Assembly: GCA_003149065.1 (NCBI GenBank)
Contig: QGFZ01000002.1
Location: 744,001-808,000 of the forward strand
DNA from: Ruminococcaceae bacterium R-25
Lineage (GTDB): Bacteria; Bacillota; Clostridia; Saccharofermentanales; Saccharofermentanaceae
DNA length: 64,000 bases
Direction of reading: 5' to 3'
This document shows positions 17,233 through 48,330 of the stretch, piece after piece (position 1 is the stretch's first letter; each line of letters starts with the position of its first letter). Below the pieces are notes generated by a model. That model did no database searches. It had not been told where the DNA came from and worked only from the letters and a program-made list of their open reading frames with translations. The translations under genes and the position numbers were made by a program.

Positions 17233-17377
17233 GGTTTTACACCGTTTTTAAAGTAAAAAGGTTTTGGTGTAAAAAACCGGGCCTTTTTTACACCACTTTC
17301 GAAATATATAAATCTGGTGTAAAAAACGCGGCTGTTTTTACACCATTTTCGAAATATATAAATCTGGTGTAAAAACT
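17233..17377. repeat. 50-bp tandem palindromic array
   Basis: Two full units and flanking partial units with an exact 50-base shift: GAAATATATAAATCTGGTGT at 17301 and 17351, GGTGTAAAAA at 17266, 17316 and 17366. Each unit folds on itself: GGTGTAAAAAA (17266-17276) with TTTTTTACACC (17284-17294), and the second copy 17316-17325 with 17335-17344. The loops (CCGGGCC, CGCGGCTG) differ while stems are conserved, indicating selection or conversion on stem sequence. The array lies between the convergent ends of the Gln-rich protein gene and pheA. Confidence 0.8.
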
Positions 17378-18884: not shown

Positions 18885-20231
18885 ATGAAGATCAGAGTAT
18901 TTACAGCAATTCTTGTCTGCAAGATAGTAAGGTGCCTCGCAAAGCTTTTCGGACGCGGTTCGAGCTTGCCTGGTAAGTATGCCCTGAAGATCTGCCCGGA
19001 CATCTTATCGCACCTTAAACTTCCGGAGACTTCCATTGCCGTTACAGGCTCTAACGGAAAGACTTCGACAGTTGAGATGATCGCCCATGTGTTAAAGAGC
19101 AATGGGCTTAATGTCGCATATAACAAAGAAGGTTCCAACCAGATCGAAGGCGTGGCGACATTCCTTATCGGCGATTCCACGATGTCGGGCAAGGTTAAGA
19201 GCGACGTTATCCTTCTTGAGGCAGACGAGAGATATTCAAGACATATTTTCAAATATTTCCATCCGAAATATTTCGTTATAAATAACCTCTACAGGGACCA
19301 GATGACCAGAAACGGACATCCTGAGTTCATCAAGAGCGTTATCAGCCAGGCAGTGTACGATGACATGACATTGATCCTCAATGCCGACGATCCGCTCGTA
19401 TCGAGCTTTGGCAAGGGCAGGGAAGGCACTATCTATTTTGGCGCCGACAAGCTCCCTACGGATAAGCTGGAAAATGACGGAATCTATAACGACGGAAAGT
19501 ACTGCCCTGTCTGCAAGGCTCCGATGGAATATGAGTATTACCATTACAATCACATCGGCAAGTTCAAGTGTTCTTCATGCGGATTTGAAAGACACGATAC
19601 AGACCACACGCTTACTTCCACAAAAGAAGAAAACGGCAAGGCAAAGATCACGATCGACGGCAGATACGATATTCCTGTTTTCTTTACCGGAATCTATCAC
19701 TGCTATAACATCCTTGCGGCTTTCACGGCTTCTGTCACGGCAGGTATCAAGCCTGAAGCTGCAGCAGAATCTTTGGGCGGATATATCTTGAAGTCAGGCC
19801 GTATTTCAGACTTCACTTTAGGAAAATTGGACGGCAGACTCCTTCTCTCAAAGCACGAGAATTCCGTTTCTTACGACCGCTCGATCGATGTAGTCGTTTC
19901 AGATAACCGCAAGAAGAGCGTTATGTTCATTGTTGATGCGATAAGCCGAAAGTATTACACATCCGATTCGAGCTGGCTCTGGGATATCAATTTCGAGAAG
20001 CTCAAGGGCGCTAATATTGACAAGATAATCCTCGCCGGACAGTACTGCGATGACCTCGCTGTAAGGTTTGAACTCGCTGGCGCAGACGAGAGCAAGATCG
20101 AGATCTTTGAGCAGGTGCCCGATGCGGCCGAATACTGCGCGCATAATCTCGATTCATTCTTATACGTGATCACATGCTTCTCTGACAAAGAAAAGATCTT
20201 ATCGATCGTAACAAGGAGGGAGCTCGCATGA
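18885..20231 (+). CDS. murT: MurT-like Mur ligase (lipid II isoglutaminyl synthase family)
   Basis: 448 aa, typical MurT length. Mur ligase ATP loop TGSNGKTSTVEM (about residue 54), a four-Cys zinc ribbon inserted in the central domain (CPVC about 207, CSSC about 229), and a C-terminal DUF1727 domain with SSWLWDINFE. MurT together with GatD amidates the alpha-carboxyl of D-Glu in lipid II. Unusual: the family's NPAG-type motif in the C-terminal domain is replaced by KHENSVSYD, and the partner GatD lacks catalytic residues. The pair overlaps by ATGA. Its mRNA appears leaderless. It may be a paralogue with changed chemistry; whether a canonical pair exists elsewhere cannot be seen. Confidence 0.82.
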   Translation: MKIRVFTAILVCKIVRCLAKLFGRGSSLPGKYALKICPDILSHLKLPETSIAVTGSNGKTSTVEMIAHVLKSNGLNVAYNKEGSNQIEGVATFLIGDSTMSGKVKSDVILLEADERYSRHIFKYFHPKYFVINNLYRDQMTRNGHPEFIKSVISQAVYDDMTLILNADDPLVSSFGKGREGTIYFGADKLPTDKLENDGIYNDGKYCPVCKAPMEYEYYHYNHIGKFKCSSCGFERHDTDHTLTSTKEENGKAKITIDGRYDIPVFFTGIYHCYNILAAFTASVTAGIKPEAAAESLGGYILKSGRISDFTLGKLDGRLLLSKHENSVSYDRSIDVVVSDNRKKSVMFIVDAISRKYYTSDSSWLWDINFEKLKGANIDKIILAGQYCDDLAVRFELAGADESKIEIFEQVPDAAEYCAHNLDSFLYVITCFSDKEKILSIVTRRELA

Positions 20232-20950
20232 ACGTGAATATCCTTTACTTGTATCCCGATTTTATGAGCCTTTACGGCGATAACGGCAATGTCAGGATCA
20301 TGAAGAAAAGACTGGAAGACCAGGGCTTTGAAGTTGAGATCACAAAGCGCACGATCACAGACAGCAAGATCGATTTTGAGAACGCTGACTTTGTTTATAT
20401 GGGTTCCGGTTTTGAATCTAACAGGAATCTTGCGGCGAAGCACATGGCGCAGTTTAAAGACGGACTCTTTAAGGCCGTTGAAGACGGCGTTCCGATGCTT
20501 TTTACAGGCAACAGCTATGACATTTTAGGCAAGGGCATTACTGCTGCTGACGGCAGCTTTATTGAGGGCTTGGGACTCTTTGGATTTACGTTCAAGGAGC
20601 AGCTCGAAAAGCGTTACACAGGCGATGTGATCCTCGAAGAAAAAGATTCGGCTGAACGTTATGTCGGCTTCGTTAACAGAGCAGGTGTTCCTGATCTGGA
20701 AGAAGATCTCGTTTTCGATGTCATGAAGGTCATTGGAACTGTTCCGATGAAAAAAGACGGTGCCAGAAAGAATAATCTTCTTGGTATAAGTCTCATAGGT
20801 CCTGTTCTTCTTAAAAATCCCAAACTCGCTGATTCTTTCGTAAAGACTATTTGCGGACGCAAGGGTGTAGAGTTTAAGGAGACAGATTATCCTCATTCGG
20901 TCAAGAGTCACATTAAGACCCTTAAAGCCTTGTTGGAGACTGAAATCTGA
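20228..20950 (+). CDS. gatD: GatD-like glutamine amidotransferase, catalytic residues missing
   Basis: 240 aa, full length for GatD. N-terminal MNVNILYLYPDFMSLYGDNG and YMGSGFESNRN are typical of the family. GatD normally hydrolyses glutamine with a Cys in GICGGYQ-type context and a His in HGPVL. Here the nucleophile region reads LFTGNSYDILG, with Gly94 where S. aureus GatD has Cys94, and the His region reads LIGPVLLKNP, with Ile190 at the His position. The surrounding fold residues are intact and the frame is undisturbed, so it is not a decayed gene. It could be a structural partner of MurT, with ammonia from elsewhere, or serve another reaction. Confidence 0.82.
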   Translation: MNVNILYLYPDFMSLYGDNGNVRIMKKRLEDQGFEVEITKRTITDSKIDFENADFVYMGSGFESNRNLAAKHMAQFKDGLFKAVEDGVPMLFTGNSYDILGKGITAADGSFIEGLGLFGFTFKEQLEKRYTGDVILEEKDSAERYVGFVNRAGVPDLEEDLVFDVMKVIGTVPMKKDGARKNNLLGISLIGPVLLKNPKLADSFVKTICGRKGVEFKETDYPHSVKSHIKTLKALLETEI

Positions 20951-21000: not shown

Positions 21001-22095
21001 ATGGCTGATACGATCAAATGCCCGAATTGCGGGTCCAATCTCACACTTAATGCTGATACTCAGAAACTTGAGTGTCCCAGTTGCGGAGCTTCTTTTGATC
21101 CTGCAACTCTTAACGACATTACCGTAGGCGAACTTGAAACAAAGCCTGCTGAGCCGACAGATCCTGCGAAGGAATATGAGCAGGCCCAGGCAGCCGAAGG
21201 ACAGCCTCAGGCCGAACCCGAGCAGACTGAATTTGTCTGCAACGCATGCGGCGCAAAGATCGTTACCGATTCTCATACTGCTGCAACTTTCTGTACATTC
21301 TGCGGATCTCCCGCACTCGTAGGAAAGAGACTTACAGAGAAGTTCCAGCCTCAGTACATGATACCTTTCAAGTACTCGAGAAAGGCTGCTGAAGAAGCCT
21401 TCATCAAGTGGGCAGGAAAAGGTAAGTGGACGCCTTTCGGATTCGTTTCAAAGAAGAACGTCGAGAAGATGTCAGGTCTTTATGTTCCGTTCTGGCTCTT
21501 TAATATCAACGCTACTGTAGATGCAAGCGGTACCGGCGATAAGATCCATTACAGAGGCGATGATGAGATCATCGAGACATTTAACTTTGAGAGAAAAGGA
21601 AAGCTCAAGTGGGAGAATGTTCCGCTTGACGGTGAGACCAGGATCGATGACCTTTTGATGGAAGCGATCGAACCTTTCGATTTTAATGCTCTTATTCCAT
21701 ACGATTACAGATATCTTCCGGGCTTTTATGCCGACAGATACGACCAGTCTCCTCAAGATCTCGCTGCCCGTGCGACAAAGCGAGGTCTGGACGGAATCGA
21801 CAAAGCCCTCAAGGGTTCTTTGAAGGGCACTTTCGACAGATTCCATATCGTCAAGAACTTGAGCAGGATAGATACGATGGAAGCAAACTATGCATTGCTC
21901 CCTGTGTGGTTCCTGTCTTACAAATACCGCAACAAGTATTACTACTTTGCAATGAACGGACAGACAGGCGAAGTTGCAGGACAGCTTCCTGTAAGCCCTG
22001 CGAAGAAGGTCATGGTCTTCTTCATCATTCTTGCTATTCTGGCCGTTATCACAAGATTTATCTTGGGTATCATCATGAGGGGGTTCTGGGGATGA
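21001..22095 (+). CDS. zinc-ribbon membrane-anchored protein
   Basis: 364 aa, AGGAGG before the ATG and TATAAT upstream. Two N-terminal zinc ribbons: CPNC...CPSC (residues 7-29) and CNAC...CTFC (about 79-102), linked by a Pro/Glu/Ala-rich spacer. A large central domain (KFQPQYMIPFKYSRKAAEEAF, GLYVPFWLFN, YLPGFYADRYD) leads to one C-terminal membrane helix (about residues 338-358). This is a conserved uncharacterised Firmicutes family, often labelled TFIIB-type zinc-ribbon protein, usually next to a TPM-domain protein as here (ATGA overlap). The function is unknown; envelope housekeeping is a guess. Confidence 0.75.
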   Translation: MADTIKCPNCGSNLTLNADTQKLECPSCGASFDPATLNDITVGELETKPAEPTDPAKEYEQAQAAEGQPQAEPEQTEFVCNACGAKIVTDSHTAATFCTFCGSPALVGKRLTEKFQPQYMIPFKYSRKAAEEAFIKWAGKGKWTPFGFVSKKNVEKMSGLYVPFWLFNINATVDASGTGDKIHYRGDDEIIETFNFERKGKLKWENVPLDGETRIDDLLMEAIEPFDFNALIPYDYRYLPGFYADRYDQSPQDLAARATKRGLDGIDKALKGSLKGTFDRFHIVKNLSRIDTMEANYALLPVWFLSYKYRNKYYYFAMNGQTGEVAGQLPVSPAKKVMVFFIILAILAVITRFILGIIMRGFWG

Positions 22096-22976
22096 GCGAA
22101 AACGTTGAATATAACGAACTGAATCAGGATCAGGGAAAGGGCCCCAAGCTCTCGGTATTGTCCGAGCTTAACGGAGCTTCAATCGGTGTAGGCATTGCGC
22201 TTATCTGCATCATCATTGCAGGCATCGTTTTCTATGTCTTTATGAACCTGTCACCTAAAAAGAGAGTCAAGGTCGTAGATGATGCCGGTCTTTTCACGAG
22301 TGAAGAGTTCGATAACATCGAAGATGCAGCGAAAAAGCTCTCCAAGGAAAAAGACATCAATGTTGTTATCGTAACCACAAAGGATAAAGGCAGTAAATAT
22401 TCCAATTCTGATGCTGACGAGAAGAGATTTGCCGAAGATTACTACATGAAGAGTGTTAAGACAGTTCCTCTTCAGAACAACTCCGGCGTCTGCATTCTCA
22501 TCGATATAACACTCGATTACCAGGGCGGAAGATTCTTCTGGCTCTATACATACGGAACAGCACATTTCGCAGTATCTGACGATGAGTGCATGAACCTGTT
22601 CAGAAAGCATCTGGACGAACTCGGAAGCGGAGAATACGGAACGGCAGTAGAGGGCATCACCAAGGAACTGGATAATTATTCTTATCAGAGCTACGGTGCA
22701 ATTGTCTTCTTTACGATCTTTGTGCCTCTCGGATTGTCCGTTCTTGGAACAAATATTGCAGCACCTAAGAGAAGACTCGATAAGGTTCCGTTCATCGGCA
22801 CATATTCACAGCCGGGTGCCAATGTCGTTGATAAGACCGATTCTTTCCTCAAAAAGAAAGTGATCCACCACGAATCTTCGAGCAGCGGCGGTGGCGGATT
22901 CTCCGGTGGCGGCGGAGGCGGATTCTCCGGCGGTGGCGGAGGCGGATTCTCCGGTGGTGGCGGCGGACGCTTCTGA
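22092..22976 (+). CDS. TPM-domain membrane protein with Gly-rich tail
   Basis: 294 aa. One helix near residues 33-56, an extracytoplasmic TPM domain (about 60-190: VKVVDDAGLFTSEEFDNIED, DINVVIVTTKD, GVCILIDI), a second helix (about 205-225), and a tail of 24-bp DNA repeats encoding GGGGFSGGGG-type sequence ending in Arg-Phe. TPM domains occur in YgcG-like proteins and the photosystem repair phosphatase TLP18.3; here the enzymatic role is unproven. The start ATG overlaps the stop of the zinc-ribbon gene, so the two are co-translated. Confidence 0.8.
   Translation: MSENVEYNELNQDQGKGPKLSVLSELNGASIGVGIALICIIIAGIVFYVFMNLSPKKRVKVVDDAGLFTSEEFDNIEDAAKKLSKEKDINVVIVTTKDKGSKYSNSDADEKRFAEDYYMKSVKTVPLQNNSGVCILIDITLDYQGGRFFWLYTYGTAHFAVSDDECMNLFRKHLDELGSGEYGTAVEGITKELDNYSYQSYGAIVFFTIFVPLGLSVLGTNIAAPKRRLDKVPFIGTYSQPGANVVDKTDSFLKKKVIHHESSSSGGGGFSGGGGGGFSGGGGGGFSGGGGGRF
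22886..22970 (+). repeat. in-gene 24-bp tandem repeat (Gly-rich tail)
   Basis: Three near-identical copies of a unit beginning GGATTCTCCGG and rich in GGCGG code for GFSGGGGG repeats. Copy number is a likely site of strain variation. Confidence 0.75.
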
Positions 22977-48107: not shown

Positions 48108-48142
48108 AACCTGGATTTTAAACCATGTTGAATTCGAGCGGC

Positions 48143-48330
48143 AAAATGAACGGCTATAGCCGCCCAAACCGCCGCCCAAACGGCCCAAAACAGCAAAAAT
48201 GACGGCAAAATAAACGGCTATAGCCGCCCAAACTACCGCCCAAACATCCCAAAACAGCAAAAATGACGGCTATATGAACGGCTATAGCCGTCAAAACCGC
48301 CGCCCAAACGGGCCTTATGTGCCAAAAGCA
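48143..48330. repeat. 64-bp tandem palindromic array
   Basis: Three units with a constant 64-base shift; the palindrome CGGCTATAGCCG occurs at 48151, 48215 and 48279. Between them run CCCAAAC and CAAAAATGACGG blocks that are conserved between units 1 and 2. The third unit is incomplete. It fills most of the gap after the aldo-keto reductase; the remaining 230 bases up to 48558 hold possible leader structures for the hyd genes. Confidence 0.85.

Follow-up and report, generated by a model that had tools for sequence, protein, structure and literature searches.

What does a GatD subunit do once the residues with which it would hydrolyse glutamine have gone? The question is raised by a murT-gatD pair of Ruminococcaceae bacterium R-25, which lies in the 64,000-nucleotide stretch of contig QGFZ01000002.1 analysed here (positions 744,001 to 808,000, hereafter the window). 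Several Gram-positive pathogens cannot do without MurT/GatD, and drug-target work assumes that the ammonia of GatD comes from glutamine. An initial annotation, made from the sequence of the window, suggested that the pair may be either a paralogue with new chemistry or an amidating complex that takes free ammonia. Our analysis favours the use of free ammonia.

Gene pair, family and fold

The Mur ligase-like subunit MurT (448 aa) is encoded at 18885..20231 of the forward strand and carries the P-loop GSNGKT, the residue pair D114/E115, a Cys4 zinc ribbon and a MurT C-terminal domain. The gatD-like gene, in whose product (240 aa) the glutaminase dyad is replaced, follows at 20228..20950 of the same strand; its ATG at 20228 overlaps the murT stop codon by four bases (ATGA), and an AGGAGG ribosome-binding site was read in the sequence 8 bases 5' of the start (20214..20219, forward strand). 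Pfam searches identified MurT_C (E 1.1e-21) and Mur_ligase_M in the murT product and a CobB/CobQ-type glutaminase domain in the gatD product. The latter aligns with S. aureus GatD along 221 residues (5n9m, E 2.4e-30; 6gs2, E 2.6e-30) and the NCBIfam GatD models with E values of 3e-36 and 1e-26; it nevertheless misses the equivalog cut-offs of these models by a wide margin (125 bits against 450 and 94 against 400), and MurT likewise scores far under its NCBIfam equivalog cut-off. By sequence, the solved structures nearest to the pair are the MurT/GatD complexes of S. aureus, S. pneumoniae and S. pyogenes, those nearest to MurT being 7q8e and 6gs2.

AlphaFold (AF2) models of both subunits were built from alignments of the clade's own sequences. 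The GatD model (mean pLDDT 95.2) gave a Z of 28.8 to the GatD of 6h5e and of 9sqj, with an rmsd of 2.3 A over 235 residues to the former, and a Z of at most 17.4 to other class I glutaminases; it has the class I glutaminase fold and the extended C-terminal helix typical of GatD (predicted at residues 222-237). The MurT model (mean pLDDT 87.2) reached a Z of 36.0 to the MurT of 9sqj and 35.2 to that of 6fqb, as against at most 26.4 to other Mur ligases. Sequence alignments and the predicted structure are thus concordant in assigning the smaller subunit to the GatD family, and the conserved fold and open reading frame that had been claimed for it hold.

An Rfam search of the 64-kb window returned no matches. 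Elsewhere in the window, an intergenic 50-base unit with a palindrome (GTGTAAAAA..TTTTTACAC) occurs twice at 17265-17375 and is possibly a repeat element or a terminator; a tandem array of a 64-base unit lies at 48139-48311 (2.7 copies, 87% matches), and the ORF at 21906-22976 ends in a GGGGFSGG tail that is encoded by 24-base repeats (22887-22963).

The active site of GatD

The catalytic triad of the S. aureus enzyme is made up of Asp349 from MurT and the GatD residues Cys94 and His189 (PMC5871853, PMC6113224, PMC3266927). When S. aureus GatD serves as the anchor of the alignments, Gly94 (GGC, 20507-20509) stands on Cys94, and Ile190 (ATA, 20795..20797, forward strand) replaces His189, exactly the two replacements initially proposed. 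Around the first site the residues T92-I93-C94-G95-G96-Y97 of S. aureus pair with F92-T93-G94-N95-S96-Y97 of the window, and around the second L188-H189-G190-P191 pairs with L189-I190-G191-P192. Because the flanking columns pair without gaps, realignment cannot restore either the Cys or the His.

The replacement at the nucleophile elbow is itself a conserved feature. T93-G94-N95 (20504..20512, forward strand) takes the place of the canonical I/V-C-G, and among 74 non-redundant GatDs of the clade I93T is seen in 67, C94G in 70 and Asn at position 95 (G95N) in 66. The oxyanion Gly60 is Ser in the window GatD, and E-N-H at 147-149 has become V-N-R; across the clade G60, Q66, C94, Q98, T122, E147, N148, H149, N169, N170 and H189, all conserved at 99-100% in canonical GatDs, are lost or strongly changed. 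Arg129 (20612..20614, forward strand), which corresponds to the glutamine-capturing Arg128 of S. aureus, is kept, as it is in 67 of the 74. The window GatD has retained its fold and lost the Cys-His dyad together with most of the canonical site of glutamine hydrolysis. Since it lacks what defines a glutaminase, we advise against classing it among glutamine-hydrolysing subunits.

In S. aureus, each of the GatD substitutions C94A, C94S, C94G and H189A abolishes glutamine-dependent activity (PMC5871853, PMC6113224, PMC3266927), and MurT D349N severely reduces or abolishes it (PMC6113224). The equivalent of Asp349 in the window MurT, D361, is still Asp; in most of the clade it is Asn or Glu. One might suppose that GatD remains active on glutamine through other residues, for instance Thr93 or one contributed by MurT, or that it serves as a glutamine-binding regulator of MurT. 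The conserved Arg128 and the nearly invariant T-G-N would fit such a role. Set against this are the eleven altered columns, the lack of any conserved Cys or His nearby and the failure of the S. aureus C94S, C94G, C94A and H189A mutants with glutamine, and we hold the proposal to be quite improbable.

Six other class I amidotransferases of the same genome (TrpG, CarA, GuaA, PyrG, HisH and a PuuD-like protein) have Cys and His intact. Glutamine is therefore still used elsewhere in the cell, and a genome-wide abandonment of glutamine use was ruled out.

Sole copy and alternative loci in Saccharofermentans

The initial annotation had considered a paralogue; if that means a second copy, we do not find one. 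Searches of the window genome for GatD and MurT_C, with E values up to 10, gave one match each, so no second murT/gatD pair, canonical or otherwise, was detected; a single MurT_C was likewise present in 14 of 14 tested genomes with altered pairs, including the complete genome of Ruminococcus sp. FMBCY1 and three Collinsella.

Among 70 Saccharofermentans genomes (most genomes compared in this study being metagenome-assembled), 25 carry the window form (form A), 9 a form B and 12 a form C; a canonical pair is present in 17, and the remaining 7 gave no match. Neither Cys nor His is present in any of forms A, B and C. The 34 genomes with form A or B are independent assemblies that include two cultured isolates, and neither residue occurs in any of them, one copy ending before the His position. 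Carriers of altered pairs include the isolates YAD3003 and AB4001, and many are of rumen origin. Values of dN/dS among related A-type gatD genes range from 0.06 to 0.11 (synonymous sites are near saturation in wider pairs); gatD is under strong purifying selection. Conservation across genomes and these ratios rule out a sequencing error or a pseudogene; together with the gapless flanks, the recurrence of the same state in independent assemblies leaves no room for the misalignment or miscalled codons by which the initial reading could have fallen.

All altered forms sit at the same place, with a prephenate dehydratase gene on one side and genes for a zinc-ribbon protein, a glycosyltransferase, an HD protein and a NUDIX protein on the other. 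In a relative with the canonical pair (G016) the pair sits between purA and a sortase gene, adjoining dnaA. The window genome has purA and the sortase gene about 75 bases apart, which means that the canonical site is empty, and in one form-C genome the two are likewise adjacent; canonical genomes possess the glycosyltransferase-HD-NUDIX region without the pair. As at most one of the two loci is filled per genome, the distribution suggests, without proving it, that canonical and altered pairs are functional replacements of each other. One genome (G026) with both forms A and C was rejected as a true case of co-occurrence: its form-C pair lies on a 9.4 kb contig and encodes a MurT that hardly differs from the one in G005, which makes binning contamination the probable cause.

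Four genomes of the genus that are 94-99% complete (G011, G014, G037 and G057) gave no GatD match, and the function of the pair appears to be dispensable in some Saccharofermentans species. This dispensability, with the 7 of 70 genomes lacking a match, is what speaks for a pair that no longer modifies D-Glu and acts as a regulator or scaffold, or on another lipid-linked substrate. We regard such a role as very improbable, given that the clade's MurTs show little or no variation at their catalytic residues and that altered and canonical pairs substitute for each other genome by genome.

Spread and repeated loss of the dyad

In a class-wide sample MurT_C was matched in 153 of 293 genomes. Of these, 36 score at or below 95.2 bits (one canonical exception set aside), a share of about 24% that is defined by a score threshold and backed by typing of 33 of these and of some genomes that score higher; none of the 33 has both Cys and His. 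The altered-pair clade comprises Clostridia and also Collinsella. One set of clade sequences was fetched with patterns containing T-G-N and L-I-G-P and is biased for that reason; the genus and class searches made no use of such patterns. In a published MurT/GatD phylogeny, Bacillota and Actinomycetota groups are intermingled (PMC11915815).

In our MurT trees (quick searches, no outgroup, unrooted) the remodelled MurTs form one group (SH-aLRT 99). The dyad is also altered in several lineages outside this clade, in the combinations G-H, A-H, S-H, S-Q, C-Q, C-D and A/G with S/T. The tree requires 8 dyad changes in the family, of which at least 7 are forced by well-supported branches, and most altered lineages outside the clade have a canonical MurT loop. 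In the open-access literature we found no description of natural Cys-less GatDs.

Several of these lineages deserve individual mention. The family of L288, L290, L291 and L292 (G615, G668, G574 and G652) combines GatDs with AS, AT, GT and GS in place of the dyad with a fully canonical MurT, and is probably the cleanest natural test of an ammonia-dependent MurT/GatD. L289 and L304 (G537, G565) retain the His of GatD and have Ser in place of its Cys, a change that human CPS1 also shows. L207, L208 and L209 (G145, G224, G279) pair a Gly-His GatD with a badly altered MurT, in which the Mg-binding Asp-Glu and the acceptor Asn are replaced; going by these residues, both subunits may be non-catalytic. 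L071 (G106 C45:46000-55641) holds two tandem murT/gatD pairs, one GatD having His at position 94 and the other Cys without His189.

MurT: ligase residues kept, active site remodelled

The window MurT retains the P-loop Lys, the Mg-binding Asp-Glu, the acceptor Asn85, the zinc ribbon and the C-terminal domain. The 54 non-redundant clade MurTs show no variation at K59, N85, E110, D112, E113, N132, R140, K321, N322 or the four zinc Cys, and very little at T60, D136 and R304 (residues K59 to R304, K321 and N322 are in S. pneumoniae numbering; D114-E115, R116 and H145 are in that of the window). In S. pneumoniae MurT, no activity remains after K59A, N85A or D112S/E113S; it drops to 10-13% with D136A and R140A, and stands at 71% with D139A and 102% with E143A (PMC6085368). 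In the loop concerned, the clade keeps D136 and R140 and replaces D139 and E143. Residues of MurT that face GatD (R135, D361 and an acidic residue at 201) are mostly kept.

Further features set the clade apart. Arg116 (19230..19232, forward strand; pneumococcal position 114), directly after the Mg-binding D114-E115, is Arg in 51 of 54 clade MurTs and Ala in 90% of canonical ones. His145 (19317..19319, forward strand; pneumococcal Glu143), in a loop at the GatD interface, is His in 45 of 54 as against Glu in 96% of canonical sequences; pneumococcal position 141 is Asn in 51 of 54 (Y/F141N). The conserved K-N-P loop has gained two residues to read K-H-E-N (19851..19862, forward strand), an insertion present in 94 of 94 clade sequences and 0 of 97 canonical ones. 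The claim that MurT lacks its NPAG-type motif therefore needs to be narrowed: in the window loop K323-H-E-N326-S-V-S the P and G are replaced and no contiguous K-N-P is left, but the loop K and N are kept.

Such remodelling raises the chief alternative, possible if doubtful, namely that the clade MurT is an amine or amino-acid ligase that joins an amino acid or polyamine to the alpha-carboxyl of D-Glu, with GatD as a structural or substrate-docking partner. A114R, Y/F141N, E143H and the insertion accompany the GatD changes of the clade; the independent dyad losses elsewhere left MurT unchanged, so that loss of the glutaminase does not by itself require a remodelled MurT. The added positive charge could hold a carboxylate, and Arg and His near the reactive centre are equally compatible with an amino acid or another amine as nucleophile. 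Against this, the MurT residues that face GatD are largely retained, and the open-access literature that we found documents no D-Glu substituent for these organisms (in Negativicutes, D-Glu carries cadaverine or putrescine). Nor does the insertion point to a nucleophile, both loop lengths being found among amino-acid-adding Mur ligases: the inserted loop had been considered as a marker of such ligases and was dropped when, by eye, MurF of the same genome proved to have a long loop and MurC, MurE and FolC short ones (this MurE carries a D-N-P-R motif, which we take to be of the meso-diaminopimelate type). That the clade as a whole represents a new kind of D-Glu alpha-carboxyl ligase, a dead glutaminase with a remodelled MurT that modifies lipid II with an amino acid or polyamine, is unlikely. 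If true, it would mean an unrecorded peptidoglycan substituent in gut and rumen bacteria and a named enzyme for D-Glu side groups.

Free ammonia as a proposed nitrogen source

To the explanation that we favour, in which MurT amidates D-Glu with free ammonia and a glutaminase-dead GatD is retained as its partner, we give about an even chance. MurT would still phosphorylate the alpha-carboxyl of D-Glu in lipid II, GatD, although non-catalytic, would be indispensable for stabilising MurT and closing its site, ammonia would enter MurT from solution instead of being released from glutamine in GatD, and the product would be D-isoglutamine. Paired with GatD C94G, S. aureus MurT is unable to use glutamine and retains NH3-dependent amidation at pH 8.5 (PMC3266927). 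In vertebrate CPS1 the glutaminase domain has lost its Cys and ammonia is taken from solution (PMC4655335). Given the C94G activity, the recurrent loss of the dyad beside an unchanged MurT and the CPS1 route, free ammonia is the simplest nitrogen source. Since S. aureus MurT requires GatD even for NH3-dependent amidation (PMC3266927), we infer that GatD would remain necessary to MurT here.

The sole copy, the clean and empty canonical site, purifying selection, the retained ligase residues and the six intact amidotransferases all favour the ammonia explanation. It is further favoured by alteration of the dyad on at least seven occasions, among them C-to-S with His kept and A/G with S/T beside a canonical MurT, and by the Asn or Glu that most of the clade, though not the window, has for the triad Asp of MurT. 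Ammonia is plentiful in the rumen, and the origin of many carriers there would suit its use. Several points weigh against it. The S. aureus enzyme does not use ammonia at pH 7.5 (PMC3266927), the Arg and His gained near the reactive centre of MurT would give no evident help in binding ammonium, Arg128, which captures glutamine, remains conserved, and the conservation of T-G-N exceeds the needs of a merely structural subunit.

Implications

The large natural clade and the several separate lineages without a glutaminase indicate that glutaminase and ligase activities are separable in evolution. Altered pairs offer natural material on the roles of GatD beyond hydrolysis, on the use of ammonia by MurT in the ammonia-rich rumen and on other groups attached to D-Glu. 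Annotation as glutamine-hydrolysing is probably wrong for roughly one in four MurT-bearing genomes of the class that was sampled.

Comparison with known systems

By its sequence features the pair falls within the MurT/GatD architecture and lacks the glutaminase hallmark of GatD, a natural Cys-less form that we did not find described in the open-access literature. With the lipid II isoglutaminyl synthases of S. aureus (6gs2/6h5e), S. pneumoniae (6fqb) and S. pyogenes (9sqj) it shares operon order, both folds, the P-loop, Mg and acceptor residues and zinc ribbon of MurT, and the glutamine-capturing Arg of GatD; it differs in lacking the Cys and His of GatD and in having T-G-N, the MurT changes A114R and E143H and the two-residue insertion. 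The S. aureus C94G laboratory mutant likewise has Gly at position 94, loses glutamine use and keeps NH3-dependent amidation at pH 8.5, but in the window form His189 and most of the glutamine site are gone as well, and the accompanying MurT is different. The MurT-like proteins of pseudomurein archaea are also MurT homologues without a working glutaminase, although they have no GatD partner whatever. CPS1 of ureotelic vertebrates offers a parallel in a class I glutaminase domain that is structurally kept without its catalytic Cys, next to a synthase that uses free ammonia; unlike the window pair, it belongs to another synthase, is a fused polypeptide and serves the animal urea cycle.
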